From positions 1-64,000 of the forward strand of contig CANLDA010000003.1 of the NCBI GenBank assembly GCA_947489325.1: a stretch of DNA of 64,000 nucleotides, read 5' to 3'. The notes beneath the pieces were generated by a model. That model saw only the letters and a list, made by a program, of their open reading frames with translations, had not been told where the DNA came from and searched no databases. The DNA comes from an uncultured Paracoccaceae bacterium (GTDB lineage: Bacteria; Pseudomonadota; Alphaproteobacteria; Rhodobacterales; Rhodobacteraceae). Below, one piece after another: positions 75 to 24,816 of the stretch (position 1 is the first letter of the stretch; each line of letters opens with the position of its first letter). The translations under genes were made by a program, and so were the position numbers.

Positions 75-740
75 CTAGCAACCAGTCCCTGCAACCACCA
101 CTCCGACAGTCTGAACAATAACACGCACATCCGCCCCAAGGGAAAGTTCACGGTAATACCGTGTGTCGTGAATGGCACGTTCGGCAAAGCTGCTTTCGTT
201 GCGGTCGCTGACTTGCCAGTATCCGGTGATCCCCGGGCGCATCGCATAATAGGCGGTTCCGGGATAGATGCTGCGTTGATCAACCATCATTGGGCGCGGG
301 CCAACAATCGACATATCCCCACGCAACACGTTCCAAAGCTGTGGCAATTCATCAATCGAACATTTGCGAATAAACAAGCCAATCCGCGTGATCCGTGGAT
401 CGAAACGCAACTTTTGCTTCTCATCCCACTCTTTGCGGGCCTCTGGGTTCTGGGCCAAATAGCGTTCCAACAAGGCATCTGCATTGGGCACCATGCTGCG
501 CAGTTTGAGCATGGAAAAGACCTGTCCATTTCGCCCCAGACGACGCTGGGTATAGAATGGCATGCGCCCATCAAGCGCGATGAGAATTGCAAATATACCG
601 ATAACCACTACTGCAATAGGCGCACAAACCAAGACCAGAAAAATATCCAAACAGCGTTTGGTAAAACTTCGGTAGAGTCCGCCCCGACGAGTTTCCAGAG
701 CAAATGCGTTCTGAAACTCACCCTGTGAGTAAAAAGCCAT
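75..740 (-). CDS. Initiating sugar transferase for exopolysaccharide (undecaprenyl-phosphate sugar phosphotransferase)
   Basis: This 221-aa protein is a bacterial sugar transferase of the WcaJ/PssY type, which moves a sugar-1-phosphate onto undecaprenyl phosphate to start a polysaccharide repeat unit at the inner membrane. A hydrophobic segment lies at about residues 30-55. It is followed by the family motifs KLRSM, DELPQLWNVLRGDMSIVGPRP and GITGYWQVSDR. The length is that of the short, single-membrane-segment catalytic version, not the five-segment WbaP form. The ATG at 740 has a GAGGGG ribosome site just upstream. The Wzz-like gene lies upstream on the same strand across a 488-base gap, so this gene probably has its own promoter. 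Sugar specificity cannot be read from the sequence. Confidence 0.9.
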   Translation of the reverse strand: MAFYSQGEFQNAFALETRRGGLYRSFTKRCLDIFLVLVCAPIAVVVIGIFAILIALDGRMPFYTQRRLGRNGQVFSMLKLRSMVPNADALLERYLAQNPEARKEWDEKQKLRFDPRITRIGLFIRKCSIDELPQLWNVLRGDMSIVGPRPMMVDQRSIYPGTAYYAMRPGITGYWQVSDRNESSFAERAIHDTRYYRELSLGADVRVIVQTVGVVVAGTGC

Positions 741-1228: not shown

Positions 1229-2497
1229 TCAGCCAGCAACAACAATGCCCAAGATAAGGATCACTACCAAAGCAACACCCCCAAGCATCACCGATCGAAT
1301 GAGATGGCGTCGCGCTTTGGCGTTTGGTTTTTCTACGGTTGGGATGGACACGATTGGACGAATGCCCACTTGCTGTTCCAGCTGACGCGCTGTGCGAATG
1401 ACAGGGTTGCGCAGCTCAAGCAGAAATGCGGCGGCCAAAGCAACAAGAAGACTGACCAAAGTGCCAGATGCGACGATACGTTTGCGGTTCGGGGAAATCG
1501 GATATTCCGGCACCAAGGCCCGTTCGAGCAAAGTAAAACTTTCCGCTTGCTGACTCTTTTGCAGCATTTGCCCGGTTTCTGCTTCGGCCTGACTGCGGGT
1601 AATGGCGCGATATTGTTCTGACAGTTTTTCCAGCTGACGTTCCAAGGTGTTGAACGTGCGTTCAACCTCGGGCGCGCGGGCAATGATGCCTTCTGTCTCG
1701 GTGGCACGCTGACGCAAAAGCGCGCGCTGTTCCTCTAGCCGCAACACACGATTGGCCTGCACAGTGCTGGCCCCCGGCTGCAATCCTGTGTTCAACTCAA
1801 CAATCTGACGTTCGATATCCAATTCGGCGGCGCGCAATTCGCCAAGCCGTTCATGGGCTTCGTCAACACCTGCGGGCAATGCTTCGGCATTGACGCTTTT
1901 GAAATTGGCAATTTCCTGTTCCAATGCACGGATCGCGCCACCAACGCGGGCCTCTTCACCTTTGAAGAACTCCAGCGTTTCGCGGGCGCGTTCTTCGCGA
2001 CGACGGCGTGTTTGATCCAATACATTGGTCACAAGCTCATTGGCTACAAGCGCTACAACTTGTGGATCTTGCATGGTTACAGTGATGCTTAGGGCGGTGG
2101 GCGAAATATCAGAGCGCCATTGTAGTGTCGGATCAATCACACGTGTCACAGTCGCAGATTGACGCAATAATTCTGCCTTCATGCCATTTTGAATGTCACC
2201 GCCGGCAAACAGGTTAAACTTCTCAACGATATGCAGCAGATTATCACGTGCCATCACCTGTTGTTCGACGATTTGCAACTGCTGCAAAGTTGACGCATTC
2301 ACGGATTGCGCCCCGGCTGTTGGATCTTGAATCTGGGGTTGTTCAATCTGGATCAACGCCGAAGTTTCATAAAGGCGTGGCAGGCTGGTGGCATAGAGGA
2401 CAGACAGCAAGATGCCACCCAATACGGTAACCGTTATCAGCACTACATGCCGACGTATCATTCCAACATAGTCACTTAATGACTGGAACTGATCCAT
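1229..2497 (-). CDS. Wzz/GumC-like polysaccharide chain-length or export co-polymerase, no kinase domain
   Basis: This 422-aa inner-membrane protein has the Wzz fold. An N-terminal membrane segment lies at about 15-35 and is followed by a periplasmic region with long heptad-like helices (about 130-310). A second membrane segment is at about 345-365 (RKRIVASGTLVSLLVALAAA) and a third, hydrophobic one is at the extreme C-terminus. The Pro/Asn-rich PEYPISPNRKR stretch before the second segment is typical of GumC/ExoP proteins. There is no Walker-type BY-kinase domain, so it would need a separate kinase or act alone. The ATG at 2497 follows AAGGAG with good spacing. It lies 120 bases downstream of the PPTase gene and probably belongs to the same polysaccharide locus. 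Confidence 0.85.
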   Translation of the reverse strand: MDQFQSLSDYVGMIRRHVVLITVTVLGGILLSVLYATSLPRLYETSALIQIEQPQIQDPTAGAQSVNASTLQQLQIVEQQVMARDNLLHIVEKFNLFAGGDIQNGMKAELLRQSATVTRVIDPTLQWRSDISPTALSITVTMQDPQVVALVANELVTNVLDQTRRRREERARETLEFFKGEEARVGGAIRALEQEIANFKSVNAEALPAGVDEAHERLGELRAAELDIERQIVELNTGLQPGASTVQANRVLRLEEQRALLRQRATETEGIIARAPEVERTFNTLERQLEKLSEQYRAITRSQAEAETGQMLQKSQQAESFTLLERALVPEYPISPNRKRIVASGTLVSLLVALAAAFLLELRNPVIRTARQLEQQVGIRPIVSIPTVEKPNAKARRHLIRSVMLGGVALVVILILGIVVAG

Positions 2498-2617: not shown

Positions 2618-3313
2618 TCAAGCCTTGCGCTCTTGCGGCAAGAAAACAAGGCTCAGAATCTGGCAACCGATCACCAAATTGTAACCCGCCAATGTAGAAC
2701 CCGCCGCAAATACCCCTGTATTTTCCACGAATGTTGCAGAAAACCGGCCGTGCGCCGGGTCAAGGCTGATGGCAATGCGCTCAAACCCGAACATCGCCTT
2801 GGTCAGCGGGTACTGGCACTTAAAGGCCGCCTCTTTTGCGCTGAAAATACGTTTGGCCAAAAGCGCGCTCTCTTGCGGGGAGTGTCCACGCAGCCATGCC
2901 TTTTCTTCCGGAAGGCACACAGTGTCCAACAAGGCAGGCGCCAGCGGCAAAGCGCCTTCTATATCGGTGCCGATGGCACGAAACTCTGCCGCATGCCCCA
3001 CAAGTGCGATGCAATGGTCCTGATCATGGGTGAGAGAGCCGACAATACCCTTTGGCCAGATGGGCGCGCGATCTGATCCCATAGGGATTTCAACGGCTGG
3101 ATGGTGCAGCCGCGCCAGGGCTTGTCGAATGGCGGTTCGTCCCAAGGCGAATTCACGTTGTCGTTCCGGCACGGCACGCGCGATGGCTTGGTTTTCAGCT
3201 GGCCATAAAGACGCGGGCGTTTCGGTTTTAGACACAACCGCAGAACAGACACCTTGCGGCAACAGACGCACTAGTGCCCCTTTCAGCGTTGCGTCCTGTG
3301 TCAAAATGCTCAT
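2618..3313 (-). CDS. 4'-phosphopantetheinyl transferase (Sfp/EntD superfamily)
   Basis: This 231-aa protein is predicted to transfer the phosphopantetheine arm of CoA to carrier-protein serines. The magnesium- and CoA-binding signatures are present: GTDIEGA around residue 118 and FSAKEAAFKCQYP about 45 residues later. The length fits the single-chain Sfp/EntD class. The ATG overlaps the stop codon of the NRPS gene in an ATGA junction, so translation is probably coupled. That makes it the likely activating enzyme for the ACP of the PKS and the PCP of the NRPS next door. The region between the two motifs has the arginine-rich N-terminal half usual in EntD-like members. Confidence 0.92.
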   Translation of the reverse strand: MSILTQDATLKGALVRLLPQGVCSAVVSKTETPASLWPAENQAIARAVPERQREFALGRTAIRQALARLHHPAVEIPMGSDRAPIWPKGIVGSLTHDQDHCIALVGHAAEFRAIGTDIEGALPLAPALLDTVCLPEEKAWLRGHSPQESALLAKRIFSAKEAAFKCQYPLTKAMFGFERIAISLDPAHGRFSATFVENTGVFAAGSTLAGYNLVIGCQILSLVFLPQERKA

Positions 3314-6300
3314 TGAGCCGCCTTATTTCGTTTCGCTCGCATAGCGCGCCGCTTGGCCATCGCGTCACTGCGACCTTGGGCGCGCCCGGTTGAGGGTGCG
3401 TTGCCGGACGGGGTGTCTGTCGCCCTGGGAGATGCCAACTTGCCCGCCCGCTTCTCAAGCTGGCTTGCCAGTTCATTGAGTACCGGAAAGCGGAAAATGT
3501 CGGTAATGCTGACCTTGGCGATGCCCAAGCCATCGCGAATTTCACGGTGCGCCTGAACGGCAAGCAGGGAATGCCCTCCGAGTTCAAAGAAATTGTCACG
3601 GCCAGAGACCTGAACCACCCCCAGAATACGTGACCATATAGCCCCGATCTGTTTGGCAAGATCGCCCGTTGAGGTTGCTTCCTCTGGCGCAGTTGTGGCC
3701 GGGGCGGGTTTGGCCATTTGCGGCGCAGGCAGGGCGTTTCGGTTGATTTTCTTGTTGGGGGTCAACGGAAAGCTGTCCAGCGTCACAATATGCGTTGGCA
3801 CCATAAAATCAGGCAAATCGCGTGACAGTGCAACGCGTAGTGCGGCACCTGCTGCGCCACCAGTCACATAGCCCACCAGACGCTGATCCCCTGGTTGATC
3901 TTCTCGCGTGATAACCACAGCCTGACTGACACCCGGTAGCGCCTCAAGCCGGGCCTCGATCTCGCCCAATTCAATCCGATAGCCGCGCAATTTGACCTGA
4001 TGGTCTGCGCGCCCAAGGAAATCAAGTCGCCCATCCCCGCGCCAGCGCACCAAATCGCCCGTGCGATACATACGACCCTGACCTGCGAAAGGATCATCTA
4101 GGAACCGTTCTGCTGTCATGGCCTCGCGCTGCCAATAACCACGCGTAACGCCTGCACCTGCGATCCACAGCTCGCCTGCCACACCAACGGCTACGGGCTG
4201 GTGCTGATCGTCCAAAACATAAAGGCGCGTGTTGGCGATGGGGGTGCCAAGGTCGGCAACGCTTGCAGAAGTCGTCACATCAACCTTGCCCGTGGTGGAC
4301 CAGATTGTGGTTTCCGTTGGGCCATACATGTTTTCGATGTGGGCATCGGTTGCGGTCTGCAATTCAATGGCCAAACTTGTCGGCAGGGCCTCTCCGCCAA
4401 TCATCACATGGCGCAAAATGCCCATGGAGGCACGGGCCGCATCATCACCAACCAACATTCGCGCCATGGACGGGGTGCATTGCAGGTGTGTCACCTTGTG
4501 GCGATGTATTTGGGCCGCAATGGAATAATCCCCCTCAGCGGGGCCCGCACCGGAATTGGCGCGTTGCAGCACCTCTGCTAAGGGCTTCAACCCCTCCAGA
4601 ACCACATCCGTATCAATGCCATAATCAATCAGGCAAGCGACCTCTGCCACACCAATAGATTTCAGTTCTTCAACCCGGGCAAGGCAGTCTTCGACCGTAC
4701 CAAACAGGCCCGAGTCCTCAAAGTATCGCAAGAATGCGAAATCAAGGATTTCCTCAAGCTCATCATCACTCAGGATACCAAGATCAAGCTGAAACGGGTT
4801 GTCGACACCTTTGGGTTTCTTAAAGGCAGGAAAGGCCCAAGCGTATTGCTTGATCAGCCCTGCCGCGCTGCGCAGATAGTTTTTCATCGGCTCGCGCGCT
4901 GTTTCACGCACCTCTTCGCGGTCATGGCCAACAAAGGTGTGCAACATCAACGTGACCTTGAAGTCCTTGGGATCATGACCCGCTTTGCGCAGCTCAGCGT
5001 GATAGAGGCCGATTTTCTCCTGCACCTCTGCAACGCTTTGCCCCAAAAGGTGCGTCAGGATATGAGCGCCGGCCTTGCCTGCGTCTTTCCACGTCTGCGG
5101 ATTGCCAGCAGTGGTGACCCACAGTTCCAATTCTTTGGAAACTGGGCGCGGCTGGGTGCGGGCGGCGAACATACTGCCATCCTTGCGCGCAAACTCCACC
5201 GCTTCGCCACGCCACAGCGCACGCAAGTCTTTCATCTGTTCAAACATCACTGTGCGGTTTTCTGGCGGTGTATGATCAGGCCACAGCACAAAGTCATCCG
5301 GCTGCCAACCCGACGCAATCGCAAGCCCAGCGCGGCCATTTGTCAGATTGTCAATTACAGCCCATTCTTCGGCAATACGCGCTGTATGGTGCAAAGGTGC
5401 GACGCAACTACCTGCACGAATGCCAATGTTATGAGTTACAGCCGCCGCCGCCGCGCCCGTAACCGACGGGTTTGGGTACGGCCCACCAAAAGCATGAAAA
5501 TGACGTTCAGGCGTCCAGACCGCACAAAATCCGTTCTGATCAGCAAATTTTGCGCCTTCCAGCAAGAGACGATATTTCCCCGACCCGGGGGCATCATCGT
5601 TGCCCCAGTAATAGATCGAAAACTCCATTCCTTGGGCAGAGTTGGCGACAAACCCGTTGGAAATCTGGCTCGCTTTGTCGTCCCCGGAAATCACCACCTT
5701 GAATCCACGCGCAAGTGTATAGAACAGCTCTAGCACGGAAATATCAAAGCTAAGGCTTGTAAGCGCCAGCCAAGTGCCTGCTGGATCATGTTGCACGCGC
5801 TCATCCATGCCTGCAAAGAAATTGGCAACGTTACGATGCTCTACCATCACGCCCTTTGGCACACCGGTAGAGCCAGAGGTATAAATCACATAGGCAAGAT
5901 CATTGCCTGTCACGCCGCTGTCAGGATTGGCATCAGGGCCATCTTGCACGTCGTCTATCACCAGAACCTGCGCGTTATGTGTGGGCAGGTCTGCCTGTAT
6001 TGCAGACTGCGTTACAATCACGCCTGCCTGACTGTCCTGAATATAATGCGCAAGCCGATCTTGTGGATAGGCCGGGTCCAGCGGCACATACGCACCGCCT
6101 GCCTTAAGAATACCCAAGACCCCGATCATCATGTCCAGCGACCGTGTGCAATACAGCCCAACAAGTGCGCCCGGCACCACGCCCATGGCTTGCAGTTGGT
6201 GACCAACACGGTTGGCGGCGCGGTTTAATTCATCATAACTCAGACTTTGGTCTTCATACACCACCGCCGTGGCCTCTGGTGTGCGCAGCACCTGCGCTTC

Positions 6301-7830
6301 AAACGCGGAATGCATCGGTACATCATCGAATGCGCAATCTGTTGCGTTCCAGAGATGCAGAAGCTCGTCTTGTTCCACCCCATCCAATAGAACAATCTCT
6401 CGCCCCTCTGACACACATCGCAAGGCGGCTTCAAACCGTGCAACAAGGCGTGTTGCATGCTGATCCTCAACACGTGCACGATCTAACACCATATGCAGAG
6501 TATCACCCAAAACGATGTTCACAGCGCTAACCGGAGTCACACCGACATCCAGCACTGCCAGATCAGGGCATGTCAGGTGGGGCAACTCGGCATCTCGCAA
6601 AGGCAAATCTACTGCAATAGCCCCTTTCTCGGCATACACTAGGGCCACGTCTGCCATGGCATCGCCCAATGGCACAGGCACCCAGTCGGTTAGGTATCCC
6701 GAAGCAACGGGCAAGGCGCCCGAGACATAGGCAAGAGAGCTGCCGATCTCACACCCACTGTTAAGTGCAAATCCGGCAAGGGCCTGCCATATTTGTGCAG
6801 AAGTCATGCCGTCAGGGCGCGCAATCGCATAGCGTTTGTAATTGGCATCTGACGCATCACCGATCAAAGGCAATTGTGCAGGCAGGAAATTGGCCAATTG
6901 TCCGCGCCAAAAGGCATCGTTCGAAGGTGGGATATCCGCACGCGCCGCGTCAACCTTGGTACCGACGCGCACCACATCAGATGCACGCAACGCTTTTCCA
7001 GACATGTCACGCAACCCGGACAAGCGCACAGCACCCTGCGCGCAGGCAATGGTCATATCCTCAGCCACCGCTACAACTGTGCCCGGCATGCCCCCGCCTT
7101 CGATATCGTCTGCGGCACCTACGGCAAAGACCTGTCCTGCGATTTCAATCTTGGCAAGGCCAACAGGGTTCCAATATTCGCCATGATCCAAGGCCCGTAT
7201 CAGGCGTGCGACATCCGCCGAATTGTCCGCAAAATCAAGCGGGGGAATAGGTTTGTTTCCGGCAAAATAGCTGCGCTGATTTAAGTCCTGAGGCGTGCCT
7301 GCGACGTCCTCGGACGTCAGCATGCCCAGCAGATCATCAAAGCTTTCGATTGCGGCCTCATAACAGCGGGTGTTCAGCGTAAGCGCGGTATCTTTGGGGC
7401 CAATATCAAACATACGCTGCACGAGGATATTGCCTGTATCCGCACGCGCCTGCATCAGATGCCATGTGATCCCGTGGTGACGTTCACCATGGATCAGCGC
7501 CCAGACAGGGGCATTCAGCCCGGCATAGTGCGGCAAAGGACCATCGTGGAAATTCACCGCGCCCTTTTGGGCCTGTTCCAACAAGGCTTGTGGCAACATA
7601 TCAAGGTTGGCGATACTCAATAGCCAATCAAAGCTAAGGGCACTGCACCGTGCCACCAAATCCTCATCGGCAGAGATAACCGGCACGTTTCGTGTTTGTG
7701 CCCAGTTGGAAATACCCTGACTGCGGGTGACAACGGCCACGATATCATGACCCGCCGTCAACGCGGCCTCTGCGCATTGGATCAAAAGGGATTCATTGCC
7801 GATCAAAAGCATCTTGAGTCTATCAGACAT
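3310..7830 (-). CDS. NRPS initiation module: formyltransferase / C-remnant / A(Gly) with inserted luciferase-like monooxygenase / PCP
   Basis: This 1506-aa protein carries a methionyl-tRNA-formyltransferase-like domain at 1-300 with the triad Asn93, His95 and Asp131 intact. About 190 residues at 305-500 resemble the back half of a condensation domain and lack HHxxxDG. An adenylation domain follows at 505-1370 (A3 TSGSTGVPKG at 651-660). It is split after A4 (SFDISVLEL, 694-702) by an FMN-dependent luciferase-like monooxygenase at about 733-1090. A5 (YGPTETT) resumes at 1169, and a PCP has Ser1421 in GGHSL. Code residues D696, I697, L700, Q1117, M1143, G1145, M1168, I1176, W1177 and K1361 read DILQMGMIWK, very close to the glycine code DILQLGLIWK. 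A basic tail ends the protein and there is no thioesterase. The start at 7830 was chosen over an upstream frame because GGAGG precedes it. It overlaps the glycosyltransferase gene by 8 bases. The inserted oxygenase belongs to the MupA/Atu3671-type natural-product group. Confidence 0.93.
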   Translation of the reverse strand: MSDRLKMLLIGNESLLIQCAEAALTAGHDIVAVVTRSQGISNWAQTRNVPVISADEDLVARCSALSFDWLLSIANLDMLPQALLEQAQKGAVNFHDGPLPHYAGLNAPVWALIHGERHHGITWHLMQARADTGNILVQRMFDIGPKDTALTLNTRCYEAAIESFDDLLGMLTSEDVAGTPQDLNQRSYFAGNKPIPPLDFADNSADVARLIRALDHGEYWNPVGLAKIEIAGQVFAVGAADDIEGGGMPGTVVAVAEDMTIACAQGAVRLSGLRDMSGKALRASDVVRVGTKVDAARADIPPSNDAFWRGQLANFLPAQLPLIGDASDANYKRYAIARPDGMTSAQIWQALAGFALNSGCEIGSSLAYVSGALPVASGYLTDWVPVPLGDAMADVALVYAEKGAIAVDLPLRDAELPHLTCPDLAVLDVGVTPVSAVNIVLGDTLHMVLDRARVEDQHATRLVARFEAALRCVSEGREIVLLDGVEQDELLHLWNATDCAFDDVPMHSAFEAQVLRTPEATAVVYEDQSLSYDELNRAANRVGHQLQAMGVVPGALVGLYCTRSLDMMIGVLGILKAGGAYVPLDPAYPQDRLAHYIQDSQAGVIVTQSAIQADLPTHNAQVLVIDDVQDGPDANPDSGVTGNDLAYVIYTSGSTGVPKGVMVEHRNVANFFAGMDERVQHDPAGTWLALTSLSFDISVLELFYTLARGFKVVISGDDKASQISNGFVANSAQGMEFSIYYWGNDDAPGSGKYRLLLEGAKFADQNGFCAVWTPERHFHAFGGPYPNPSVTGAAAAAVTHNIGIRAGSCVAPLHHTARIAEEWAVIDNLTNGRAGLAIASGWQPDDFVLWPDHTPPENRTVMFEQMKDLRALWRGEAVEFARKDGSMFAARTQPRPVSKELELWVTTAGNPQTWKDAGKAGAHILTHLLGQSVAEVQEKIGLYHAELRKAGHDPKDFKVTLMLHTFVGHDREEVRETAREPMKNYLRSAAGLIKQYAWAFPAFKKPKGVDNPFQLDLGILSDDELEEILDFAFLRYFEDSGLFGTVEDCLARVEELKSIGVAEVACLIDYGIDTDVVLEGLKPLAEVLQRANSGAGPAEGDYSIAAQIHRHKVTHLQCTPSMARMLVGDDAARASMGILRHVMIGGEALPTSLAIELQTATDAHIENMYGPTETTIWSTTGKVDVTTSASVADLGTPIANTRLYVLDDQHQPVAVGVAGELWIAGAGVTRGYWQREAMTAERFLDDPFAGQGRMYRTGDLVRWRGDGRLDFLGRADHQVKLRGYRIELGEIEARLEALPGVSQAVVITREDQPGDQRLVGYVTGGAAGAALRVALSRDLPDFMVPTHIVTLDSFPLTPNKKINRNALPAPQMAKPAPATTAPEEATSTGDLAKQIGAIWSRILGVVQVSGRDNFFELGGHSLLAVQAHREIRDGLGIAKVSITDIFRFPVLNELASQLEKRAGKLASPRATDTPSGNAPSTGRAQGRSDAMAKRRAMRAKRNKAAQ

Positions 7831-8830
7831 ACGTGTCCTCCTGCCTTGATATTTCAGGCACCTCGCGCGCCTTAGCGGCGCGTCCCCGTAACAGAATCCG
7901 GAAATCATGCATCACTAAATCACGCAAAAAGCGACGTGGGCCTGTCACTTTCTTACCCGTCAATGCCGCACGAACCCACGCCAAAACACCGCCTGCGACA
8001 TGTGCAAGGGTCGCGCCAATCGCATAAACCACCCCGTGGTTGCGCAAGAAATATTGCAGTCGAGAGTCTAGCCAGAACCCAGGGATACGGTCCCATTTGC
8101 GCATGCCGGTGGATACGGACCCCACGTGCAAGACACGGCTTTCGACTACATAATGAGTTTGCCAACCCGCGCGCGCACCGCGCAGGCACAGGTCGGTTTC
8201 CTCAAAATACAGAAAATAGGATTCATCAAAAAGCCCGATGTCTCGCAACATTGCGGTGCGCATCATCATACTGGCACCAGCTGCCCAATCCACCTGACAG
8301 GTTTTTGTGGGAATCGGCGGGGCAACAATGCTGTTTTTCAACAGGCGACTGATTGGTCCGAATTTGGCGGCACCTTCAAATTCGCCCGCTATGGTTGGGA
8401 AACGAAAGGATGAATGTACAGCCTCAACGCCATCTTCGTACAGCTGGCTACAAGCAAAGCCGCATTTGGGGTGGGCACGCATATGTTGCATCAAGACGGC
8501 AATCGCGCCCTGATCGACAAAGGCGTCAGAATTCAGGATCAGCACAAATTCCGGCACACCCTGTCCGCGCGCCATCTGTTGACCGATACCCAGACGAATG
8601 CCGAAATTATTGCCTGCACCAAACCCACCATTGTGCCCGGATTGCGCCACATGCACGCGGGTTTCGGACCAGTCTTGCGCAGACAGCTTGTCGAACGATC
8701 CATCCGCGCTGTCGTTGTCCACCACAACGATTTGTCCATTAATGCCCTCGGTTGCGCGCAGCGCAGCCTCTACGGCCTGCATGGTCATTGTGGGGGTGCG
8801 GTAATTCAAGATCACTGTCAAAAGGCTCAT
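7823..8830 (-). CDS. Family 2 glycosyltransferase (rhamnosyltransferase-like)
   Basis: This 335-aa GT-A fold enzyme opens with LLTVILNYRTP and VVVDNDSADGS, the nucleotide-sugar binding start of family 2. A DSD-like metal site (LNSDAFVD) lies near residue 98 and the acceptor-side motif YFLYFEETDLCLRGARAGW near 210. These resemble dTDP-rhamnose-using enzymes of the WcaA/RfbF kind. The ATG at 8830 is preceded by AGGAGG and overlaps the PKS stop in ATGA. Its 3' end overlaps the NRPS start by 8 bases. Its place between PKS and NRPS in a coupled unit suggests that it glycosylates their product, though it could act on the polysaccharide instead. The donor sugar is not determinable. Confidence 0.88.
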   Translation of the reverse strand: MSLLTVILNYRTPTMTMQAVEAALRATEGINGQIVVVDNDSADGSFDKLSAQDWSETRVHVAQSGHNGGFGAGNNFGIRLGIGQQMARGQGVPEFVLILNSDAFVDQGAIAVLMQHMRAHPKCGFACSQLYEDGVEAVHSSFRFPTIAGEFEGAAKFGPISRLLKNSIVAPPIPTKTCQVDWAAGASMMMRTAMLRDIGLFDESYFLYFEETDLCLRGARAGWQTHYVVESRVLHVGSVSTGMRKWDRIPGFWLDSRLQYFLRNHGVVYAIGATLAHVAGGVLAWVRAALTGKKVTGPRRFLRDLVMHDFRILLRGRAAKAREVPEISRQEDTYV

Positions 8831-11800
8831 TCTGCGGCCTCCTGCCATGCGTCTGTGATGTCTGCCTCGGCGGCCTCGATTACCCGTTTCATGCGTGTGG
8901 CCAGAACCCGCACATTCGGTTCCAGAACCATTGAATCATGATCCCCCGGTACCTCGGTCACGTGCACATTTGGCACCCATTGCCCCCAATCATTATCGGC
9001 AAAAACATAGGCACGTTGACGATCAACCCAGCGGTCGCCCCCAACCTGCCAATAACCATTCAGCGGTGGGCGGAACAATTCAAGCCGGCCGTCCCAGCCA
9101 TGCATATCATAGGCTTCAACAGCAGACAGGAACGCAGCCTCGATCTCAGCATTATGAAAGTGCGGGGTTTCTTCGGCTTTGGAGTGATCTTGCGCGCGGC
9201 GTTTGGAAATTTCCCAAGCGATCCGACTTTTCAGCCATAGCATTGGATACAGCGGCCCACGACGCTTCAGTTCGATCAATTGCATCCACATCCGATCCCC
9301 AAACCTCAGCGGACGGCGTTGTGGCAAAGGCGTATCCAGCAAGATCACAATCGCCACTGTGTCGCCTGCAGCTTCCAACTGACGCGCGATTTCATAGGCG
9401 GTGATCCCCCCGCCAGAAAACCCGCCAAGAAAGTACGGGCCCTTGGGTTGCACCGTTTTCATTTCACGAATGTAATCCGTCGCCGCCTCGCGCAAATCTC
9501 TGTGCGGCGGGGCATCGCCAAACAACCCACGCGCCTGAAGCCCATAAAACGGTCGGTCCGCGCCAAGAAGATGCGCGAGATGGCGCAAGTTCAGAACATT
9601 GCCAAACATACCCGCCACAAGGAAAAACGGCGCTTTGCGCCCGCCTTCGCCATTATGCATTGGGACCAGATGGGTAAAGCGGCGCAGCGGTACGACGCCT
9701 GAATCCGTCGAGGCGTCACTGGTGTCTTGTGGGCCAATACGGTTTTCGATCAAACCCGCACATTGCGCAATTGTCGGGGCCTCAAACAGCACCGAAATGG
9801 GGAATTCCACCGCCCATGTCTTTTTCACCATGGAAAACAGGCGCACCGCGACCAACGAATGCCCGCCCAGATCAAAAAAGCTGTCGTTTGTGCCAACATC
9901 CTGCACGCCCAACAGATCTTGCCAGAATCCGGCAAGGGTGCGCTCTATATCGGTTTGTGGGGCCACAAAATCATTATCCAGATCGGGTCTTTCAAAGGTT
10001 TGGCCGCGATCGATTTCGTCCAGCTCTCCTGCCTGATCAATCAATGCATTCAAATCCATTGACGACACGATAATCTGCGAGGCTTTTGCCGCCAGAGCGC
10101 GGCCAAACATTTCCGCGCCTTCATCGGGGCGAATGCCCTGTTGCAGGTTGTGACGCAAGCGTTCCTCGGCGGGGGTGATGGCATCAGTGGGGGCTTCGAT
10201 AAAGCGAACATCCTGCGCGCGAACAGGGGCACTTGCCGAAACGCCCAGTGCATCTTGCATGCGTTTCAGGGTCAACCCACGCACTTGCACGCAAACTTGT
10301 CCCGCCTCATTCAAAACATCTACGTCAAAGCGAGCAACGCCCTGTGTGTCACTGCCAGACACCAATCGCACCCAACTGACAACCTGCGACGGCAGGTCGT
10401 GATATACCCGGATAGCCCCATAAGATAATGGCACCCACAGCGCTTGTTGCGCATAACCATCAATCAGATCCATCGCCCAACCTGTGGCAATATCCATCAT
10501 CCCCGGATGCAGTGCCATACCGTCATCGACAAAGGCATTGTCCAGTGACAGCTCTGCCAACCCCTCGCCCTTTCCAAAACGCACGGCGCGCAACACTTTC
10601 CAGCGGGGACCAAAGGCAAGATGCGCCTCTTGTGGGGCGGACAGAGCATCGGTGCCACGGGTTTCTTCGCCACATCGGCCTGCCACCTGAGCCGTTAAAA
10701 TATCTTGCGCCGCAGGCATGGTGCCCAAAGCAACAGAGGCTTCGGCATGCAACATTTCGGCCTGACGCCCCTCGACCATAACCCGGCTTACGATTTGCAC
10801 GTCATACCCGATTGCTGCACGTATCAGGCGCACACGAATGTCCTGCGAGACTCCATCAGAAACCACCAAGGGACGCAGGAATATCAGGTCTCGAATTTCA
10901 TAGGGTTTCTGTTCGCCATGTGCCCGCAAGGCCTGCGCGATCAATTCGATATATCCCGTACCGGGCCAAATCGCAGTGCCATCCAGCATGCGGTGTTGAT
11001 CCAGAACCCAGCATTCCTGATTGATATGGGCCGCAAAGACCCGGTGTCCCTGTCCATCATACCCACCTTGGGTCAAAATAGGGGTTTCAATCGGGGCAAG
11101 GCGCTCTTTCGCAGATGCAGGTGCGAGGGCCTCTGCCGCCATACCAACGCCGTTCCAGATACCCCAGTTCAACGCCAGAACACGGGTTTTATCCTGTGCG
11201 CGGCTTTCGGCATACGCATTCAAAAAGGCATTGGCCGCGACGTAATCCACCTGCCCCGCCGGCGCGATGGCAGTGGACGAAGACGCAAACAGTGCCAGCC
11301 AATCCAATGTGCCATCAGGGAACAACGCATCAATCACCTGCGTGCCGTGCAATTTGGGGGCCATAACGTCTTCGACTGAGGCAGAGTTTTTCGACAAAAG
11401 CGGCGCATCATCCACAACGCCTGCGGCATGAATTACACCGTGAATGTCACCCTGTTTTGCCTGAACATCACGCACGACTCCTTGCATCTCTTCCAGATTA
11501 CTGACGTCTGCGGATTTAACGATAACTTGACCACCCAGCGCTTCAAGCCGCTCGATGGTGGCAATTCTGTCAGCAAATCGCGGATTAAGACGCGCCTCAT
11601 TCCACTGTGTACGCGCCGGAAGCGGGGTCCGCCCGACCAGAACAATGCAGCCCGCCCCTTGTTGCAGCAGTGACTGCGCCAACGTCACGCCGATGCCGCC
11701 AAATCCTCCGGTGATCAGATAGGTGCCACCAGCCCGTATATCCGCACCTTGCTCAGGCAACGCATTGGGCCGATAAATCCGCTCAAACCGCTTTGCACCG

Positions 11801-14800
11801 CGCAATGCGGCCACGCGATTTTCAGGTTGGGCGATGATTTCTTCAAGCACGGCATCCACTAAATCTGCCTGCCCCGACACAACGTCCAACAACCCTGCGG
11901 TCACCTGCGGCAATTCACGCGGCGCAACCTGAAGCGGGCCCAGCACCGTTGCCTTTTCTGGGTACGCCAGCCCTTCGCTACGCACCTGTACTGCACCGGA
12001 ACTGATGCAGGACACATGCACGGGCCTTGGGAGGTTTTCATCCGTAATCGCCTGCATCAAAAACAGGATCGAGTGCAGTCCTTGTTCAAGGTTACGATGG
12101 AAAAATGAACTGCCCGGGCGCGCACCTTCGTCTTGCGTTAACAGCCACATGTGCACGATCCGGCTGGGTGCACGTCCGTTGACAATCAGATCAGATATCA
12201 GTTGGTCATATCCTTCACGACCACGCTCTGGGGCCAGAACATAGTGATCCGGTGACAACCGTGCAAAGGCATCACCTGTGTCCACCTCAACCACCCCATG
12301 ACCTGCCGTGCGCAGGCGTTCGGCGACCTTTGCTCCCGTTCCGGCGGCATCGCGAAAGATCAACCAGCTTTCGGTTGGCAGCAGTGACAACTCAGTTTGC
12401 ACATCAATGTCACATTGCGCCAAGGTCGGACGCCACGCCGGACGATATCCCCAGGATGCCATGTCATCTGTGCGCAAAAGTTCGGTATCTTCTGCGACCG
12501 CTTTGCCCGGTTCAATAAAGTATGGTGCGCGCTGGAAGGCATAGGATGGCAACACAACGCGATTGCGACGCGCCTCTCCCCAGATTTGGGCCCAATCAAT
12601 GCTAGCGTTACAAGCCCACAGGCGCGCCAAGACAGTCATGAACCAAATGTCATCGGCCACATCTTCGTCCATATGCCGCAACAAGTTGATCACATGTCCC
12701 GCGCCAATATTCGGCTGCATCCGCGCCAGAACGCACAGGGTTTTGCCTGGGCCAACTTCAAGATAAACGCGATTTTTCTCGGCCGAAAGCGTTTCCATAC
12801 AGTCACCAAACCGCACGGTGTGGCGCAAGTGGGTCACCCAATACTCTGGGCTTGTGGCCTCTTCATCTGTCAGAGGTTGCCCGGTGCGATTTGAGATGAT
12901 CTGCACCTTTGGCACGGCCAGTGTAATTCCAGATAGATAAGCCCTGAATTCATCCAAAACAGGGTCCAACATAGCAGAATGTGCCGCAATATTAATTGGA
13001 ACGCGCTGACATTCGATGTCTTGTGCCGCAAGGGTTGCGGCCAAGTCGTCCAATATAGCATCAGCCCCAGAAACGACTGTCAGCATAGGAGCATTCACCG
13101 AGGCAATGTCCACATCTTCACCGATCAGGGCCTCGACTTCGGCCACAGGCAAGGGGATGCTCAGCATTCCGCCTGCAGGCACGCTGTCCATCAATTGTCC
13201 ACGCAACAGCACGAGGCCGATGCAATCCTCAAACGACATCACGCCCGCCAGACAGGCCGCCGTGTTTTCCCCCATGGAGTGACCCACAAGCGCGGATGGC
13301 ATCACATCCCAGCTTTGCATCAACTGTGCCAATGCATATTCCGCGATCATGATCAGCGGAAGCTGTAGCGAGGGCTGTTTTAGCTGCTCTGCCGCGCCGT
13401 CAACCTGCCCCAACCATAAGGCACGCACGTCATAGCTGACCTGTGCCTGTAAATGGTCCAATCCGCGGTCCATCCATTCTTGGAAAACCGGTTCTGTTTC
13501 ATAGAGACCTTGCGCCATGCCGGCGTATTGTGCGCCGCCACCGGGGAACATGAACACAACTTCGGCCGCATCCGGGGTGGCGTCATGGGCAAACACGCGC
13601 CCTGTCTCTGCCCTGTCCAGCAATTGCGCGGCCTCGGTTGCGTTGTGTGCCACCACAACGCGGCGTTTTTCAAAGGCGCGGCGCCCCTCCTTCAAGGTCC
13701 ATGCAACATCGGCCAAGTTTTGTTCGGGATTGGTACGCAAATGCGTCACTAATGCTGCGGTATTTGCATCCAATGCCTTTTTCGTACGCCCCGAAATGAC
13801 AAGCGGCTGAAAGGGCCAATCGCTTTCGTCGCTTGATACGCGTTCGGGTGCCTCTTGTACCACCACATGCGCATTTGTGCCGCCTACGCCCAATGAATTC
13901 ACCCCGGCCCGGCGCGCGCCCTGTCGTTGTGGCCAATCAGTCAGACGGTCATTCACCACAAAGGGGCTGTTTTCAAAATCAATGGTTGGATTAGGGGCCT
14001 CATAGCCCAGACTTGGCGGCATCTGTTGATGATGCAACGCAAGCGAGGTTTTGATCAGACTGGCGGCCCCGGCTGCTGTATCCAGATGCCCGATGTTTGT
14101 TTTGACCGACCCGATACGGCAAAATCCGCTGTCCGCCACATCGCCGAATGCTTCCGTCAGGGCAGCCACCTCGATCGGGTCGCCCAGATATGTGCCTGTG
14201 CCATGGCATTCGATGTAATCCACGGAATGCGGCTCTATTCCAGCCATTTCCTGCGCTTCTGAAATGGCCGCGGCCTGACCGCCAACACTGGGCGCCAAAT
14301 ATCCAGCCTTATCCGCGCCGTCGTTATTGATCGCGGATCCACGAATGACGGCCCAGATGTGATCGCCGTCCGCTATTGCGTCATCCAAGCGACGTAGGAC
14401 TACAACTCCGGCACCGCTGCCAAAAACCGTGCCTTCAGCGCGATGGTCAAAGGCGTGGCAATGACCGTCCGGGGACAGAATTTCCCCATCGCGATATGTA
14501 TATCCCCGACCATGAGGCAACTCAATCGTAACGCCGCCTGCCAGCGCCATATCGCATTCACCGGTCAGCAGCGACTGACAGGCGTAATGCACAGCCACAA
14601 GCGACGTGGAACAGGCCGTTTGAATATTGACGCTTGGCCCCTTGAGATCAAGAAAATGGCTAAGGCGCGTACTCAGGAAATCCTTGTCATTGCCTGTGTG
14701 GCGCAGCAGGAACATGCCCGTATTTTTGACGAGATCAGGATTGGAACACACATTGAAATAGAAATAGCTGCCCATACCGCACCCGGCATAAACCCCAATC

Positions 14801-15168
14801 GGCCCGCCAAAGTTTTCAGGCATGTGACCGGCGTTTTCCAAGGCCTCCCAGCTGACTTCTAGAAATTGGCGATGTTGGGGGTCCATAATGGCCGCTTCTT
14901 TGGGACTAAGACCAAAAAACTCAGCATCAAAACGCTCAAACCCCTTCAATTTTGCCGCAGCGGGGACATAATTGGGTTGGCGAATTCGGGCACGGCTTTC
15001 GCCTACGGCAAGCAATTCTTCTTCGCTTAGGCGTTCAATTGATTCTACACCATCGCGCAGGTTTTCCCAAAATTCGGCAACAGACTCCGCCCCCGGCAAA
15101 TGCGCGGCCATCCCAACGATAGCGACATCATTGTCGGACCAATCCAGTTTATCTGCACCTTTCGTCAT
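8827..15168 (-). CDS. Type I modular polyketide synthase, KS-AT-KR-DH-ACP-TE
   Basis: This 2113-aa protein contains one extension module. The ketosynthase at 13-435 has Cys186 in TACSTS, His322 and His361. The acyltransferase at about 538-830 has Ser631 in GHSMGE and a IAAH motif at 727-730, which leans towards malonyl-CoA but is not decisive. The ketoreductase has a structural half at about 930-1120, a catalytic half at 1147-1345 (TGGFGGIG) and Lys1272 and Tyr1309. The residues VDD at 1252-1254 lie where B-type enzymes have LDD. The dehydratase at about 1375-1635 has His1392 and Asp1559. The ACP has Ser1771 in GGHSL, and the thioesterase has Ser1918 in GFSGG and a late GDHDSM. The KR precedes the DH, the reverse of the usual order. 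The thioesterase implies that this protein releases the final chain. No strong ribosome site precedes 15168, but the reading frame and first domain fit. Confidence 0.95.
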   Translation of the reverse strand: MTKGADKLDWSDNDVAIVGMAAHLPGAESVAEFWENLRDGVESIERLSEEELLAVGESRARIRQPNYVPAAAKLKGFERFDAEFFGLSPKEAAIMDPQHRQFLEVSWEALENAGHMPENFGGPIGVYAGCGMGSYFYFNVCSNPDLVKNTGMFLLRHTGNDKDFLSTRLSHFLDLKGPSVNIQTACSTSLVAVHYACQSLLTGECDMALAGGVTIELPHGRGYTYRDGEILSPDGHCHAFDHRAEGTVFGSGAGVVVLRRLDDAIADGDHIWAVIRGSAINNDGADKAGYLAPSVGGQAAAISEAQEMAGIEPHSVDYIECHGTGTYLGDPIEVAALTEAFGDVADSGFCRIGSVKTNIGHLDTAAGAASLIKTSLALHHQQMPPSLGYEAPNPTIDFENSPFVVNDRLTDWPQRQGARRAGVNSLGVGGTNAHVVVQEAPERVSSDESDWPFQPLVISGRTKKALDANTAALVTHLRTNPEQNLADVAWTLKEGRRAFEKRRVVVAHNATEAAQLLDRAETGRVFAHDATPDAAEVVFMFPGGGAQYAGMAQGLYETEPVFQEWMDRGLDHLQAQVSYDVRALWLGQVDGAAEQLKQPSLQLPLIMIAEYALAQLMQSWDVMPSALVGHSMGENTAACLAGVMSFEDCIGLVLLRGQLMDSVPAGGMLSIPLPVAEVEALIGEDVDIASVNAPMLTVVSGADAILDDLAATLAAQDIECQRVPINIAAHSAMLDPVLDEFRAYLSGITLAVPKVQIISNRTGQPLTDEEATSPEYWVTHLRHTVRFGDCMETLSAEKNRVYLEVGPGKTLCVLARMQPNIGAGHVINLLRHMDEDVADDIWFMTVLARLWACNASIDWAQIWGEARRNRVVLPSYAFQRAPYFIEPGKAVAEDTELLRTDDMASWGYRPAWRPTLAQCDIDVQTELSLLPTESWLIFRDAAGTGAKVAERLRTAGHGVVEVDTGDAFARLSPDHYVLAPERGREGYDQLISDLIVNGRAPSRIVHMWLLTQDEGARPGSSFFHRNLEQGLHSILFLMQAITDENLPRPVHVSCISSGAVQVRSEGLAYPEKATVLGPLQVAPRELPQVTAGLLDVVSGQADLVDAVLEEIIAQPENRVAALRGAKRFERIYRPNALPEQGADIRAGGTYLITGGFGGIGVTLAQSLLQQGAGCIVLVGRTPLPARTQWNEARLNPRFADRIATIERLEALGGQVIVKSADVSNLEEMQGVVRDVQAKQGDIHGVIHAAGVVDDAPLLSKNSASVEDVMAPKLHGTQVIDALFPDGTLDWLALFASSSTAIAPAGQVDYVAANAFLNAYAESRAQDKTRVLALNWGIWNGVGMAAEALAPASAKERLAPIETPILTQGGYDGQGHRVFAAHINQECWVLDQHRMLDGTAIWPGTGYIELIAQALRAHGEQKPYEIRDLIFLRPLVVSDGVSQDIRVRLIRAAIGYDVQIVSRVMVEGRQAEMLHAEASVALGTMPAAQDILTAQVAGRCGEETRGTDALSAPQEAHLAFGPRWKVLRAVRFGKGEGLAELSLDNAFVDDGMALHPGMMDIATGWAMDLIDGYAQQALWVPLSYGAIRVYHDLPSQVVSWVRLVSGSDTQGVARFDVDVLNEAGQVCVQVRGLTLKRMQDALGVSASAPVRAQDVRFIEAPTDAITPAEERLRHNLQQGIRPDEGAEMFGRALAAKASQIIVSSMDLNALIDQAGELDEIDRGQTFERPDLDNDFVAPQTDIERTLAGFWQDLLGVQDVGTNDSFFDLGGHSLVAVRLFSMVKKTWAVEFPISVLFEAPTIAQCAGLIENRIGPQDTSDASTDSGVVPLRRFTHLVPMHNGEGGRKAPFFLVAGMFGNVLNLRHLAHLLGADRPFYGLQARGLFGDAPPHRDLREAATDYIREMKTVQPKGPYFLGGFSGGGITAYEIARQLEAAGDTVAIVILLDTPLPQRRPLRFGDRMWMQLIELKRRGPLYPMLWLKSRIAWEISKRRAQDHSKAEETPHFHNAEIEAAFLSAVEAYDMHGWDGRLELFRPPLNGYWQVGGDRWVDRQRAYVFADNDWGQWVPNVHVTEVPGDHDSMVLEPNVRVLATRMKRVIEAAEADITDAWQEAAE

Positions 15169-15276: not shown

Positions 15277-16644
15277 TCAAGGCGAATTCAAGGCACTTAG
15301 TGCCAGAACGGCATCAGCGTTCATCCAAAAGGCAAATCCGGCAAGCCCCAGACCTAGCACAAGAAATACCGCATCATGCAGCGCATCCCAAGTGCCCTGT
15401 TGTCGCGCTAGCCAGACCACCACGGGATAGGCCAGCACATAGGCCACGCCCTGACCAATAAGCGCCCCGATCAAGCCCCAGTATTGCGCGCCAATCACCA
15501 AAGCCGCCAGAGTCAGCGCCGCACGCGTTGCGGCCAGCACAAAGAATTGTCGGGAATTGCCTGCCGCTAGTGCAGCCTGATCATAGGTCAGTGCAATCAC
15601 ATGGGGCACTTGCATGGCTGCAACGACCACCACAACACCGCCCGCAAGCGCATACCGTGGATCATAAAGCGTCGTCACCAACCACGCCCCAACCAGCGCA
15701 AAGAGACCCAGCAGTGCCAAAATCAATAAGCTGAGCGCAACCCGCATGCGCTGCAATTTTCGATAATTTTCGGGTGCATCTTTTGGGGGCAACTCGCGAT
15801 AGATCGGGATCAACGTTTTGCGCACAACCATACCACCCAACAGCATCGGAAAGCTGGCAAGGAAGTAACCGATATTATAAATGCCCAGCGCCTCTAACGT
15901 CAGATACTTGCCAAGGATAACCTTGTCGCCTTGGGACAACAAAAATCCAGCCACAGTGCTGAGAAACACCCATTTACCAAAATGGATCAACTCATGTGCC
16001 GCTGCTTTTTCCCAGCGAAACCTGTTGCGCGCGCCGGGCAAATACGCATCATACAACCAAAGCTGAATGGACGCGCTGACCAGCCCGCTGAGGGCCAGCG
16101 CCCAGACCGACTGCAACCACCACGCCAACAGCACCGCCGCGATGATACCACTGATTTGTGTGATGACATCAATCGCTGTCACCCGCCCCAGCATCAAGTG
16201 GCGGTTGGCGGTTTCAAGGCGCGTGGGATTAAACCCTGTGATGACCAAGGATAGCCCGGCAACGGGCAACAGTTGCGCCAATTGCGGGGCGTCGTAAAAC
16301 CATGCGGCAGGCATCGCCAAGGCGCATGTTCCCAGCCACAACAACACCCCGCGCCAAACTTGTATTGTCCACGCGGTATCCAGGAAACCCGGATCATCGC
16401 CGCGTTTGCTTTGCATGATAGATGGGCCGACGCCAACGTCCGAAAACATCGCCAACCCCATCATAAACACCCCAACAAGGGCCATCATGCCAAAGGCCTC
16501 TGGGAACAGCAGTCGCGTGAGGATCAAATTAGAGGCCAGTCGCAGCGCCTGCGAAGTGGCATAGCCCCCCAATGTCAGTGCCGAACTGCGCATCACACGA
16601 TCACGCAGGCCGTCGCCGCGCAGAAACATCGCAAGGCGGCTCAT
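15277..16644 (-). CDS. Wzx-like oligosaccharide or lipid-linked-product flippase
   Basis: This 455-aa integral membrane protein of the MOP/polysaccharide-transport superfamily flips lipid-linked glycans across the inner membrane. The sequence shows about 12 hydrophobic segments. Its N-terminus, ALTLGGYATSQALRLASNLI followed by LTRLLFPEAFGMMALV, is typical of lipopolysaccharide-biosynthesis flippases of the WzxC/RfbX kind. The frame extends upstream to 16659, but the ATG at 16644 has GGAG at the right distance and overlaps the preceding glycosyltransferase stop in ATGA. The PKS gene starts 108 bases downstream on the same strand. The substrate could be the polysaccharide repeat, the PKS-NRPS product, or a conjugate of both. 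Confidence 0.88.
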   Translation of the reverse strand: MSRLAMFLRGDGLRDRVMRSSALTLGGYATSQALRLASNLILTRLLFPEAFGMMALVGVFMMGLAMFSDVGVGPSIMQSKRGDDPGFLDTAWTIQVWRGVLLWLGTCALAMPAAWFYDAPQLAQLLPVAGLSLVITGFNPTRLETANRHLMLGRVTAIDVITQISGIIAAVLLAWWLQSVWALALSGLVSASIQLWLYDAYLPGARNRFRWEKAAAHELIHFGKWVFLSTVAGFLLSQGDKVILGKYLTLEALGIYNIGYFLASFPMLLGGMVVRKTLIPIYRELPPKDAPENYRKLQRMRVALSLLILALLGLFALVGAWLVTTLYDPRYALAGGVVVVVAAMQVPHVIALTYDQAALAAGNSRQFFVLAATRAALTLAALVIGAQYWGLIGALIGQGVAYVLAYPVVVWLARQQGTWDALHDAVFLVLGLGLAGFAFWMNADAVLALSALNSP

Positions 16645-17462
16645 CTTCCGCGTCTCCATTCATCGCCCCGTCCGGGGCCAAGACGCACTGCAAGGGCCAC
16701 CGATGCATAGGCCGCAAATCCCATTGGATCGCGTAACGCCAATCGTAATGCACCCAGTATCCCAAGGGGTTGCTTGTCATCATTGGTCAGAAGTTCTGGG
16801 AACCAGTCAGATATTTCTACCACCCCTCTGTCCTGCCGCCGACGTACACGCACCAGTTTCGAAAAGCCTTCAACAACGGGCCATTCATAAGAGGCCTGAA
16901 CCTTCAGTCGTTCACGTGACGCGAATTGAAGGCGTGCAAATGTGTCATCGGAGATAATGGCAGGCCAATCGCCCCAACGATCGCGCCCTGCCGCATTCAC
17001 TGCAAAAACACCTGCGCCCGGCACACCCTTGGCCATAAATGGCACCTGCGCCCAAATACGAGCATAGGCACGGCTGAACGCGGTTTGGGCGGTCATCTTC
17101 AAATGACCGCTGGCATAGGTTGGCGCTTTCGTGGACAGGCACTGATAAAGCTGCGCCAATAGGGCAGAATCCACAACAACATCCGCATCCAGATAAACCC
17201 GTGCGGTACCTTGCGCCGCCATATCTCCGGCATTCAGAGCATTGGCCTTGCCACCCTCTGTCAGATCAAGCAACACAAACCGCCAACCTCGTGCACCAAT
17301 CCTATGACGAAAGCTATTCGCAACGGCAACAGTGTCATCCTCACAGCCATTCGCGACGATAATCACCTCAGCGCGCTCTGGTCCATCCGAACGCAAAACC
17401 GCCTCAAGGCAGGATCCAATCCACGCCTCTTCGTTGCTGGCTGGGATAATAATGCTCAGCAC
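16641..17462 (-). CDS. Family 2 glycosyltransferase
   Basis: The first residues LSIIIPASNEEAWIGSCLEA and VIIVANGCEDDT are the classical family 2 opening. DADVVVD near residue 100 is the metal-binding DxD. ISDDTFARLQF near 190 is the catalytic-base region. The frame can be opened at a TTG (17489) with no ribosome site. GTG at 17462, nine bases after AAGGAAGGG, puts the start directly at the conserved beta strand and is preferred, giving 273 aa. It overlaps the flippase start by ATGA and leads the transcript. The product probably adds a sugar to a lipid-linked intermediate at the cytoplasmic face. Confidence 0.85.
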   Translation of the reverse strand: MLSIIIPASNEEAWIGSCLEAVLRSDGPERAEVIIVANGCEDDTVAVANSFRHRIGARGWRFVLLDLTEGGKANALNAGDMAAQGTARVYLDADVVVDSALLAQLYQCLSTKAPTYASGHLKMTAQTAFSRAYARIWAQVPFMAKGVPGAGVFAVNAAGRDRWGDWPAIISDDTFARLQFASRERLKVQASYEWPVVEGFSKLVRVRRRQDRGVVEISDWFPELLTNDDKQPLGILGALRLALRDPMGFAAYASVALAVRLGPGRGDEWRRGR

Positions 17463-17578
17463 TCGTTGTTGCCCTTCCTTATGATCCAAAAATGGTCACG
17501 TCTGCGCCCCAAACATGTTAGACACCTGTATAAGATCAAGTTTCACATAGATTTCTAAGTACGAGCAAGGCCTGCCAC
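17463..17578. promoter_or_regulatory. Divergent promoter region between two glycosyltransferase genes
   Basis: These 116 bases separate outward-reading genes and must contain or overlap promoters for both the long minus-strand biosynthetic unit and the plus-strand family 4 glycosyltransferase. The part around 17515-17565 is AT-rich. I could not assign -35 and -10 boxes with confidence. Confidence 0.4.
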
Positions 17579-21659: not shown

Positions 21660-21739
21660 TCTTGGACTCCAATTGTAAGCCAAGGCCCAACGCAGGGCCT
21701 GCGTCAAAGATATTGGCTAATAGGTCGTTGGCAAGTTCG

Positions 21740-24016: not shown

Positions 24017-24816
24017 CCGGCATCCTCTTGTTTTTGTACAAATCTGCACGCGCGTTCCATGTCGGCAATGCCGCTGTCAGAACTTAGACCATTGCGGTCA
24101 AACCAGAACAGCACATCCCGGATCACCACATCACCCAACGTTTTCACAATGCCTTTGCGATGACTGCGACAGGCCATGAACACATCTGACGCCCCCAACA
24201 TCGAGGTCGCCAACTCCATGCTGGGGCCGATGTGCTGCACTGATGGGCTAAACCCTTCATGCCCTACACAGGCACTGAGGTAAATATTCCCCTGCGAATA
24301 CCCAAATGCCACCCAACATCCTGGTGCAGGCGTGGGCATGCGCAGGTCAATGGTTTCGCTTTGATCCTGTAAAATCAATGTGCCCTCTTTTTCATGGAGG
24401 AACAGGTAATTTTTATGATCATGTGGATTCACGGAAATCAATGTGCGCGCGTTTGCATGAGGGGTTTGTATTCGGCAAGCAAAGCTGAAATGCGCCGCAT
24501 CTATCAAAGCGTTTTCAACGGCCAAGCCGCAATTCACACCAGCCTGCGCCAGCAATCCACCCCCTTGAGAAAATCGCGCGTGCCCCTCATTGGGAGTTGC
24601 TGGTTTGGCCTTGGTTCCAACTTTATTCTCGGCAGGCCATGCTGTGATCACCCCATCGGTATGCGTGAGTGATGTGCCACGATACCAGATAGCCTCACAT
24701 TCATTCGGATGGCTTGCAGGGCCGATCCATTCAACGTTTTGTTGGGACGGTGGCGTATCACGCAACAGAACCGCCTCTGGCACCTCGATATCCACGACAT
24801 AGGGGGCGTCTGTCAT
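24013..24816 (-). CDS. Unrecognised 267-aa protein, possibly a LamG/concanavalin-like beta-sandwich
   Basis: I do not recognise a family with confidence. The protein has no signal peptide or membrane segment. The stretch ALIDAAHFSFACRIQTP, then KNYLFLHEKEGTLILQD, then GCWVAFGYSQGNIYLSACVG resembles the strand pattern of laminin-G/pentraxin domains that bind sugars (exposure statement, ligand, then display strands). It overlaps the upstream 479-aa gene by one base (TGATG) and the sulfatase by ATGA, so the three are almost certainly translated together. A glycan-binding or assembly partner of the sulfatase is a guess. Confidence 0.6.
   Translation of the reverse strand: MTDAPYVVDIEVPEAVLLRDTPPSQQNVEWIGPASHPNECEAIWYRGTSLTHTDGVITAWPAENKVGTKAKPATPNEGHARFSQGGGLLAQAGVNCGLAVENALIDAAHFSFACRIQTPHANARTLISVNPHDHKNYLFLHEKEGTLILQDQSETIDLRMPTPAPGCWVAFGYSQGNIYLSACVGHEGFSPSVQHIGPSMELATSMLGASDVFMACRSHRKGIVKTLGDVVIRDVLFWFDRNGLSSDSGIADMERACRFVQKQEDAG

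Follow-up and report, generated by a model that had tools for sequence, protein, structure and literature searches.

Our analysis favours, by a modest degree, the reading that an NRPS gene in the window (the whole 64,000-nucleotide stretch of DNA that was analysed) encodes the initiation module of an NRPS-PKS within an exopolysaccharide operon, which would open a chain with an N-formyl-(alpha-hydroxy)glycyl unit and yield an acyl group for the polysaccharide. The domains and catalytic residues, the absence of the N-terminal subdomain of a condensation (C) domain, the gene order and its conservation were all observed by computation. Sequence comparison supports an initiation-type module, since the formyltransferase (F) triad is intact, no working C domain precedes the adenylation (A) domain, and the A code is glycine-like.

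Gene start and domain order of the NRPS

The NRPS open reading frame covers window positions 3310-7908 on the minus strand, its longest frame beginning at ATG 7908. The ATG at 7830 is the likely start and was preferred over 7908 because an AGGAGG, 6 bases upstream, precedes only the former. Pfam assigned Formyl_trans_N, Formyl_trans_C and a two-piece AMP-binding domain with a luciferase-like monooxygenase between the pieces, followed by a carrier domain (PCP); this is the C-terminal end, and no C or thioesterase (TE) domain was found by Pfam in the same protein. The features are as follows.

3310..7830, minus strand: NRPS gene, F - C(C-subdomain) - A(LLM) - PCP, 1506 aa (ORF, AGGAGG start, domains)
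6949..7830, minus strand: F domain, a complete ArnA/FMT-like formyltransferase with catalytic part and C-terminal barrel (Pfam, AlphaFold2 model, VIA-align)
7438..7554, minus strand: catalytic triad Asn93 (7554-7552), His95 (7548-7546) and Asp131 (7440-7438), conserved in homologues
6319..6957, minus strand: predicted C-terminal subdomain of a condensation domain and start of the C-A linker, without N-subdomain and HHxxxDG (profile, model, fold matches)
5674..6303, minus strand: adenylation domain, first part, with code residues D722, I723 and L726 (Pfam PF00501)
4570..5622, minus strand: FMN luciferase-like monooxygenase (TIGR04020) inserted between A4 and A5 (470 bits; 334 bits to PuwE 6ket)
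3730..4527, minus strand: adenylation domain, second part, with code residues Q, M, G, M, I, W and K (Pfam/TIGR domain matches)
3463..3651, minus strand: peptidyl carrier domain, Ser1447 of the ORF (Pfam PF00550; Ser in 104/104 ungapped homologues)

The F domain is closer to ArnA than to LgrA

Both parts of the F domain were matched by Pfam (Formyl_trans_N, E 1.7e-17; Formyl_trans_C, E 1.6e-5), and the triad numbering N93, H95 and D131 is exact when the start is taken as 7830, these residues being kept in 108/108, 107/108 and 107/108 homologues, respectively. An AlphaFold2 model of residues 1-504 (63 sequences) reached a mean pLDDT of 94.2, and its F domain superposed on the ArnA formyltransferase domain (2bln) with a VIA-align Z of 27.7, at 2.5 A over 283 residues; the fold search, which with the whole F-remnant model probed F only, also returned methionyl-tRNA formyltransferases. 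These results bear out the original prediction, made from the letters, that the triad is intact at these positions and that an FMT-like barrel follows; its box of 6900-7830 for this domain captured F, which ends near 6949, but also took in about 16 residues of the condensation remnant. By sequence, F scored 80.9 bits over 291 residues against ArnA vs 33.9 bits over 125 against LgrA, and its best structural and sequence matches were ArnA, Fmt and sugar N-formyltransferases. Judged by sequence and model, F is more similar to ArnA/methionyl-tRNA formyltransferase than to LgrA, with the predicted FMT C-terminal barrel retained.

The region after F corresponds to the C-terminal half of a condensation domain

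Over the approximately 200 residues after F, Pfam gave no match even at E 10, and the HHxxxDG motif was sought there and was absent. As Pfam gave nothing on this remnant, we turned to a profile of the family and to a fold of the remnant by itself. The profile, built from 29 relatives, matched solved condensation domains at their C-terminal end (McyB, E 2.6e-12; Txo1, 3.1e-7; Txo2, 3.7e-7). Since the fold search with the whole model had covered F only, the remnant (~210 residues) was modelled by itself with AlphaFold2, giving a pLDDT of 92.6, and this model matched AmbE (Z 14.6 over 175 residues) and RzmA (Z 14.0 over 178); the PDB matches listed for it were all of condensation type (condensation, starter, cyclization and X-domains), with Z of 12.7-14.6. 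The alignments fall in the C-terminal subdomain (RzmA 184-430; LgrA C2 942-1220), and the active-site histidine that is mutated in the RzmA structures, residue 140, lies in the subdomain that is absent here, so that F would occupy the place of the N-terminal subdomain. As both profile and model predict, the remnant is a complete condensation-domain C-terminal subdomain, in agreement with the original prediction that some 190 residues after F look like the back half of such a domain without HHxxxDG. Of the HHxxxDG motif and two subdomains of a condensation domain, only the C-terminal subdomain was found, and the missing N-terminal subdomain accounts for the lack of the motif.

Conservation is lowest in the remnant: its mean majority-residue share is 0.44, whereas F reaches 0.66 and the monooxygenase 0.81, and such a level fits a structural role better than an enzymatic one. 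Given this lowest conservation, yet a confident predicted fold, the remnant looks like a structural part rather than an enzyme, which favours the second of the two roles, vestigial or structural, first proposed for it.

The adenylation domain is glycine-like and contains a flavin monooxygenase

Alignment to the motif positions of GrsA gave the A code DILQMGMIWK, which is glycine-like and close to the glycine code, DILQLGLIWK. Among the homologues aligned there, 9/10 code positions were invariant, and from this code we infer that glycine is the A-domain substrate. Between A4 and A5, the A domain harbours an inserted FMN luciferase-like monooxygenase, which scored 470.2 bits against TIGR04020 (curated cut-off 244.45) and is homologous over its full length to PuwE 6ket (334 bits).

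In myxothiazol and melithiazol biosynthesis, the monooxygenase at A4-A5 of the glycine A domain of MtaG/MelG alpha-hydroxylates glycine (PMC10204066, PMC11342130). As the oxygenase is placed here as in MtaG/MelG, the starter is, by analogy, probably N-formyl-alpha-hydroxyglycyl-PCP. For the original prediction of an initiating module making N-formylglycyl-PCP, the initiation type and the glycine-like code are in its favour, while N-formylglycyl-PCP itself is probably just an intermediate, because a monooxygenase that the prediction did not mention sits inside the A domain. Nor did the prediction bring in the PKS and the polysaccharide genes. A point against our main explanation is that the hydroxylated glycine of MtaG/MelG falls apart rather than being extended (PMC10204066). 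The N-formyl-alpha-hydroxyglycyl-PCP could likewise split into formamide and glyoxylyl-S-PCP, with the PKS extending a two-carbon aldehyde: the insertion site is the same as in the myxothiazol and melithiazol systems, where the hydroxylated N-acylglycine breaks into an amide and a glyoxylyl thioester (PMC10204066), and the code is glycine-like. However, alpha-hydroxyglycine is kept without cleavage in solanimycin and skyllamycin (PMC10204066), and it would be wasteful to formylate a nitrogen that is later discarded; we consider such a glyoxylyl starter unlikely.

The NRPS belongs to a conserved PKS-GT2-NRPS-PPTase block

The NRPS gene is flanked upstream by a family 2 glycosyltransferase (GT2) gene and a PKS gene and downstream by a phosphopantetheinyl transferase (PPTase) gene. 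PKS-GT2-NRPS was found in 66/66 relatives, the PPTase in 63/66, a flippase in 46/66 and Wzz in 42/66, the 66 loci being those with at least 20 kb of sequence among the best 80 matches and representing close relatives, not independent events.

8827..15168, minus strand: type I PKS, KS-AT-KR-DH-ACP-TE, active-site residues conserved (Pfam; 102 homologues)
7823..8848, minus strand: family 2 glycosyltransferase, its gene lying between those of the PKS and NRPS with an overlap on either side (Pfam; 66/66 loci)
2618..3313, minus strand: Sfp-type 4'-phosphopantetheinyl transferase, with a 4-base overlap with the NRPS gene (Pfam; 63/66 loci)

The PKS, GT2, NRPS and PPTase genes overlap by 22, 8 and 4 bases, and the catalytic residues of the KS, AT, KR, DH, ACP and TE domains are conserved in 102 PKS homologues. 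The expected working order, with the PKS gene immediately after the one for A(LLM)-PCP, is seen in Methylobacterium, Aliiroseovarius and Deinococcus. In the PKS, KR precedes DH, and the DH motif reads H-x4-G-x4-P where HxxxGxxxxP is usual, a difference of one extra residue, with the H and the catalytic D kept in 102/102 homologues. One genome paper records, for Phaeobacter inhibens, the PKS Inhi_1972 and the NRPS Inhi_1974, which differ by two in locus number and are given no function; they may be homologues.

Polysaccharide genes surround the block

Polysaccharide genes lie on both sides of the PKS-NRPS block, and the initiating transferase, Wzx, Wzz and glycosyltransferases of a Wzx/Wzy exopolysaccharide locus are all present. 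A Wzy polymerase was not identified in the 64,000-nucleotide window, and the Wzy_C match of the relatives is below the Pfam cut-off, which counts against our main explanation.

15277..16659, minus strand: Wzx-type flippase (Pfam Polysacc_synt_3; 46/66 loci)
16641..17489, minus strand: family 2 glycosyltransferase of the polysaccharide locus (Pfam; 50/66 loci)
1229..2497, minus strand: Wzz chain-length determinant (Pfam; 42/66 loci)
75..740, minus strand: initiating sugar-phosphate transferase (Pfam Bac_transf; 18/66 loci, within the flanking sequence covered)

The polysaccharide locus is a neighbour of the NRPS-PKS, and such neighbourhood does not prove that the two share a product, another point against our main explanation. 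That the NRPS-PKS instead yields a natural product that diffuses freely, with no functional meaning in the polysaccharide genes around it, we hold to be quite unlikely: NRPS-PKS products are usually free molecules, and a homologue with another partner, in Aliiroseovarius (L005), lies beside nos genes, but the window gene overlaps with those of GT2 and PPTase, PKS-GT2-NRPS recurs in all 66 loci, and Wzx and Wzz accompany it in 46 and 42 of them. The locus also bears on the substrate of F, since an ArnA-like F would equally suit an amino sugar, which counts against our main explanation. On such an account, F would act on an amino sugar of the polysaccharide, as ArnA or WbkC does, and its fusion to the NRPS would serve co-expression only; the top matches of F (ArnA, Fmt, sugar N-formyltransferases) and a locus that makes polysaccharide speak for it. 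Against it, NRPSs of Mycetohabitans and Rhizobium jaguaris with the identical F-remnant-A order, and without the oxygenase, have no polysaccharide genes in their annotated flanks, and in the LgrA precedent, tested as F-A-PCP, F acts on the PCP-bound amino acid (PMC5053139). We judge this account very improbable.

Next to the polysaccharide genes are a sulfatase with RTX repeats (window 21740-24049; Pfam Sulfatase, 117 bits) and a 973-aa RTX-repeat protein (18786-21707), and a possible sulfotransferase lies at 26287-27210; the sulfatase and possible sulfotransferase genes suggest that the polysaccharide may be sulfated. A link to exosortase XrtD, suspected from XrtD or VPLPA-CTERM genes near three relatives (L001, L005 and L006), was dropped, as full XrtD matches occurred in 2/20 genomes with the NRPS vs 5/20 without it.

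Proposed pathway and distribution

In the preferred reading of an N-formyl-(alpha-hydroxy)glycyl start, the A domain would load glycine onto the PCP, F would formylate the glycyl amine with formyl-tetrahydrofolate as donor, and the embedded FMN monooxygenase would hydroxylate the alpha carbon. The adjacent PKS would take up the resulting unit at its KS and put it through a single cycle of malonyl extension, reduction and dehydration, and the TE would release the product, probably as an acyl group on a polysaccharide sugar. Between F and A, the C-terminal C subdomain would be retained as a platform and would carry out no condensation. For this pathway we infer both the formylation and the hydroxylation, as well as the hand-over to the PKS, the acceptor and the product.

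F together with the condensation remnant (F-X) was present in 105/295 sampled genomes of the family Rhodobacteraceae (~36%), counting matches with E up to 2e-39, beyond which the next lies at 9.6e-22. TIGR04020 scored above its cut-off in 3/190 genomes of the class, all three of the same family, and in 0/187 of other families. The module is carried on plasmids of Ruegeria, Parasedimentitalea, Paracoccus, Aminobacter, Shinella, Rhizobium and Methylobacterium, and this carriage in several genera suggests horizontal spread. No relatives were found in the viral contigs searched.

Several variants of the module were seen. Genomes G126, G132 and G245 have two F-X modules each, and F-remnant start modules without the oxygenase occur at L013:8004-15398 and L150:7941-14870. 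On a Paracoccus marcusii plasmid (NZ_CP143307.1, 248011-252187; hit H19), the NRPS relative matches as eight segments, with several hypothetical proteins as annotation, and is probably a broken copy. In Deinococcus actinosclerus, F is a separate 304-aa protein with the triad kept (L011:11785-12696), adjoining an A(LLM)-PCP gene (L011:12945-17108) and a PKS, with polysaccharide genes around them; no Pfam family matches the ~360 N-terminal residues of this A protein. F-like matches, by F alone, were also found on plasmids of Bradyrhizobium, Sinorhizobium, Mesorhizobium and Legionella (L. adelaidensis) (hits H55-H90), several annotated as NRPS, which suggests that the class of F-start modules may extend more widely.

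A broader proposal, which we find possible but doubtful as a whole, is that a widespread Rhodobacteraceae exopolysaccharide is decorated with an acyl group from a dedicated NRPS-PKS that starts from N-formyl-alpha-hydroxyglycine and in which a formyltransferase has replaced the N-terminal half of a condensation domain. If true, assembly-line enzymes usual for antibiotics and siderophores would act as polysaccharide decorators in a large marine bacterial group, and the decorating locus would be present in about a third of the sampled genomes of the family. F on a half C domain would show a route for grafting tailoring domains, in which the N-terminal subdomain is swapped and the C-terminal subdomain with its A junction is retained, and would offer a design lead for engineered N-formylated starters. 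In a literature search, largely without subscription journals, on F with a luciferase-like monooxygenase, Atu3671 and NRPS-PKS with exopolysaccharide, no paper on the locus was found, and within that literature the combination of F, half C and embedded oxygenase appears to have no description and no known product.

Comparison with known systems

LgrA of linear gramicidin, the likeness drawn in the original prediction, shares an N-terminal F with the N-H-D triad before A and PCP, in a first module without a condensation domain, and to this extent the likeness stands. It does not extend to the architecture, because F in LgrA matches to residue 142 and A starts from ~204, leaving no room for a C remnant, whereas the window module keeps the FMT barrel and places a ~210-residue C subdomain between F and A. 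The window module thus has a triad-bearing F and no functional C before A and PCP, but not a short F directly on A; it further differs in its glycine-like A with a monooxygenase, its PKS partner and an F nearer to ArnA by bit score.

The F-A starters of conglobatin (CongA), oxazolomycin and rhizopodin likewise open a PKS chain with F, A and PCP, and in conglobatin the A domain is predicted to activate glycine, with F-A(Gly)-PCP feeding the PKS (PMC4504003). The window module differs from these in its embedded monooxygenase and polysaccharide locus, and in that no CongE/OzmP-type cyclodehydratase gene was noticed among the conserved genes of the 66 loci in the gene-conservation survey.

PuwE (6ket) and other MupA/Atu3671-type oxygenases (TIGR04020) are homologous to the embedded oxygenase over its full length, but they sit in other host modules, and none of those compared had an F domain. 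MtaG and MelG share the flavin monooxygenase at A4-A5 of a glycine A domain; they are, however, termination modules, whose proteins also contain C and TE and which cleave the chain to an amide, whereas the window module, which has neither a complete C nor a TE, is a predicted start module with F in place of C.
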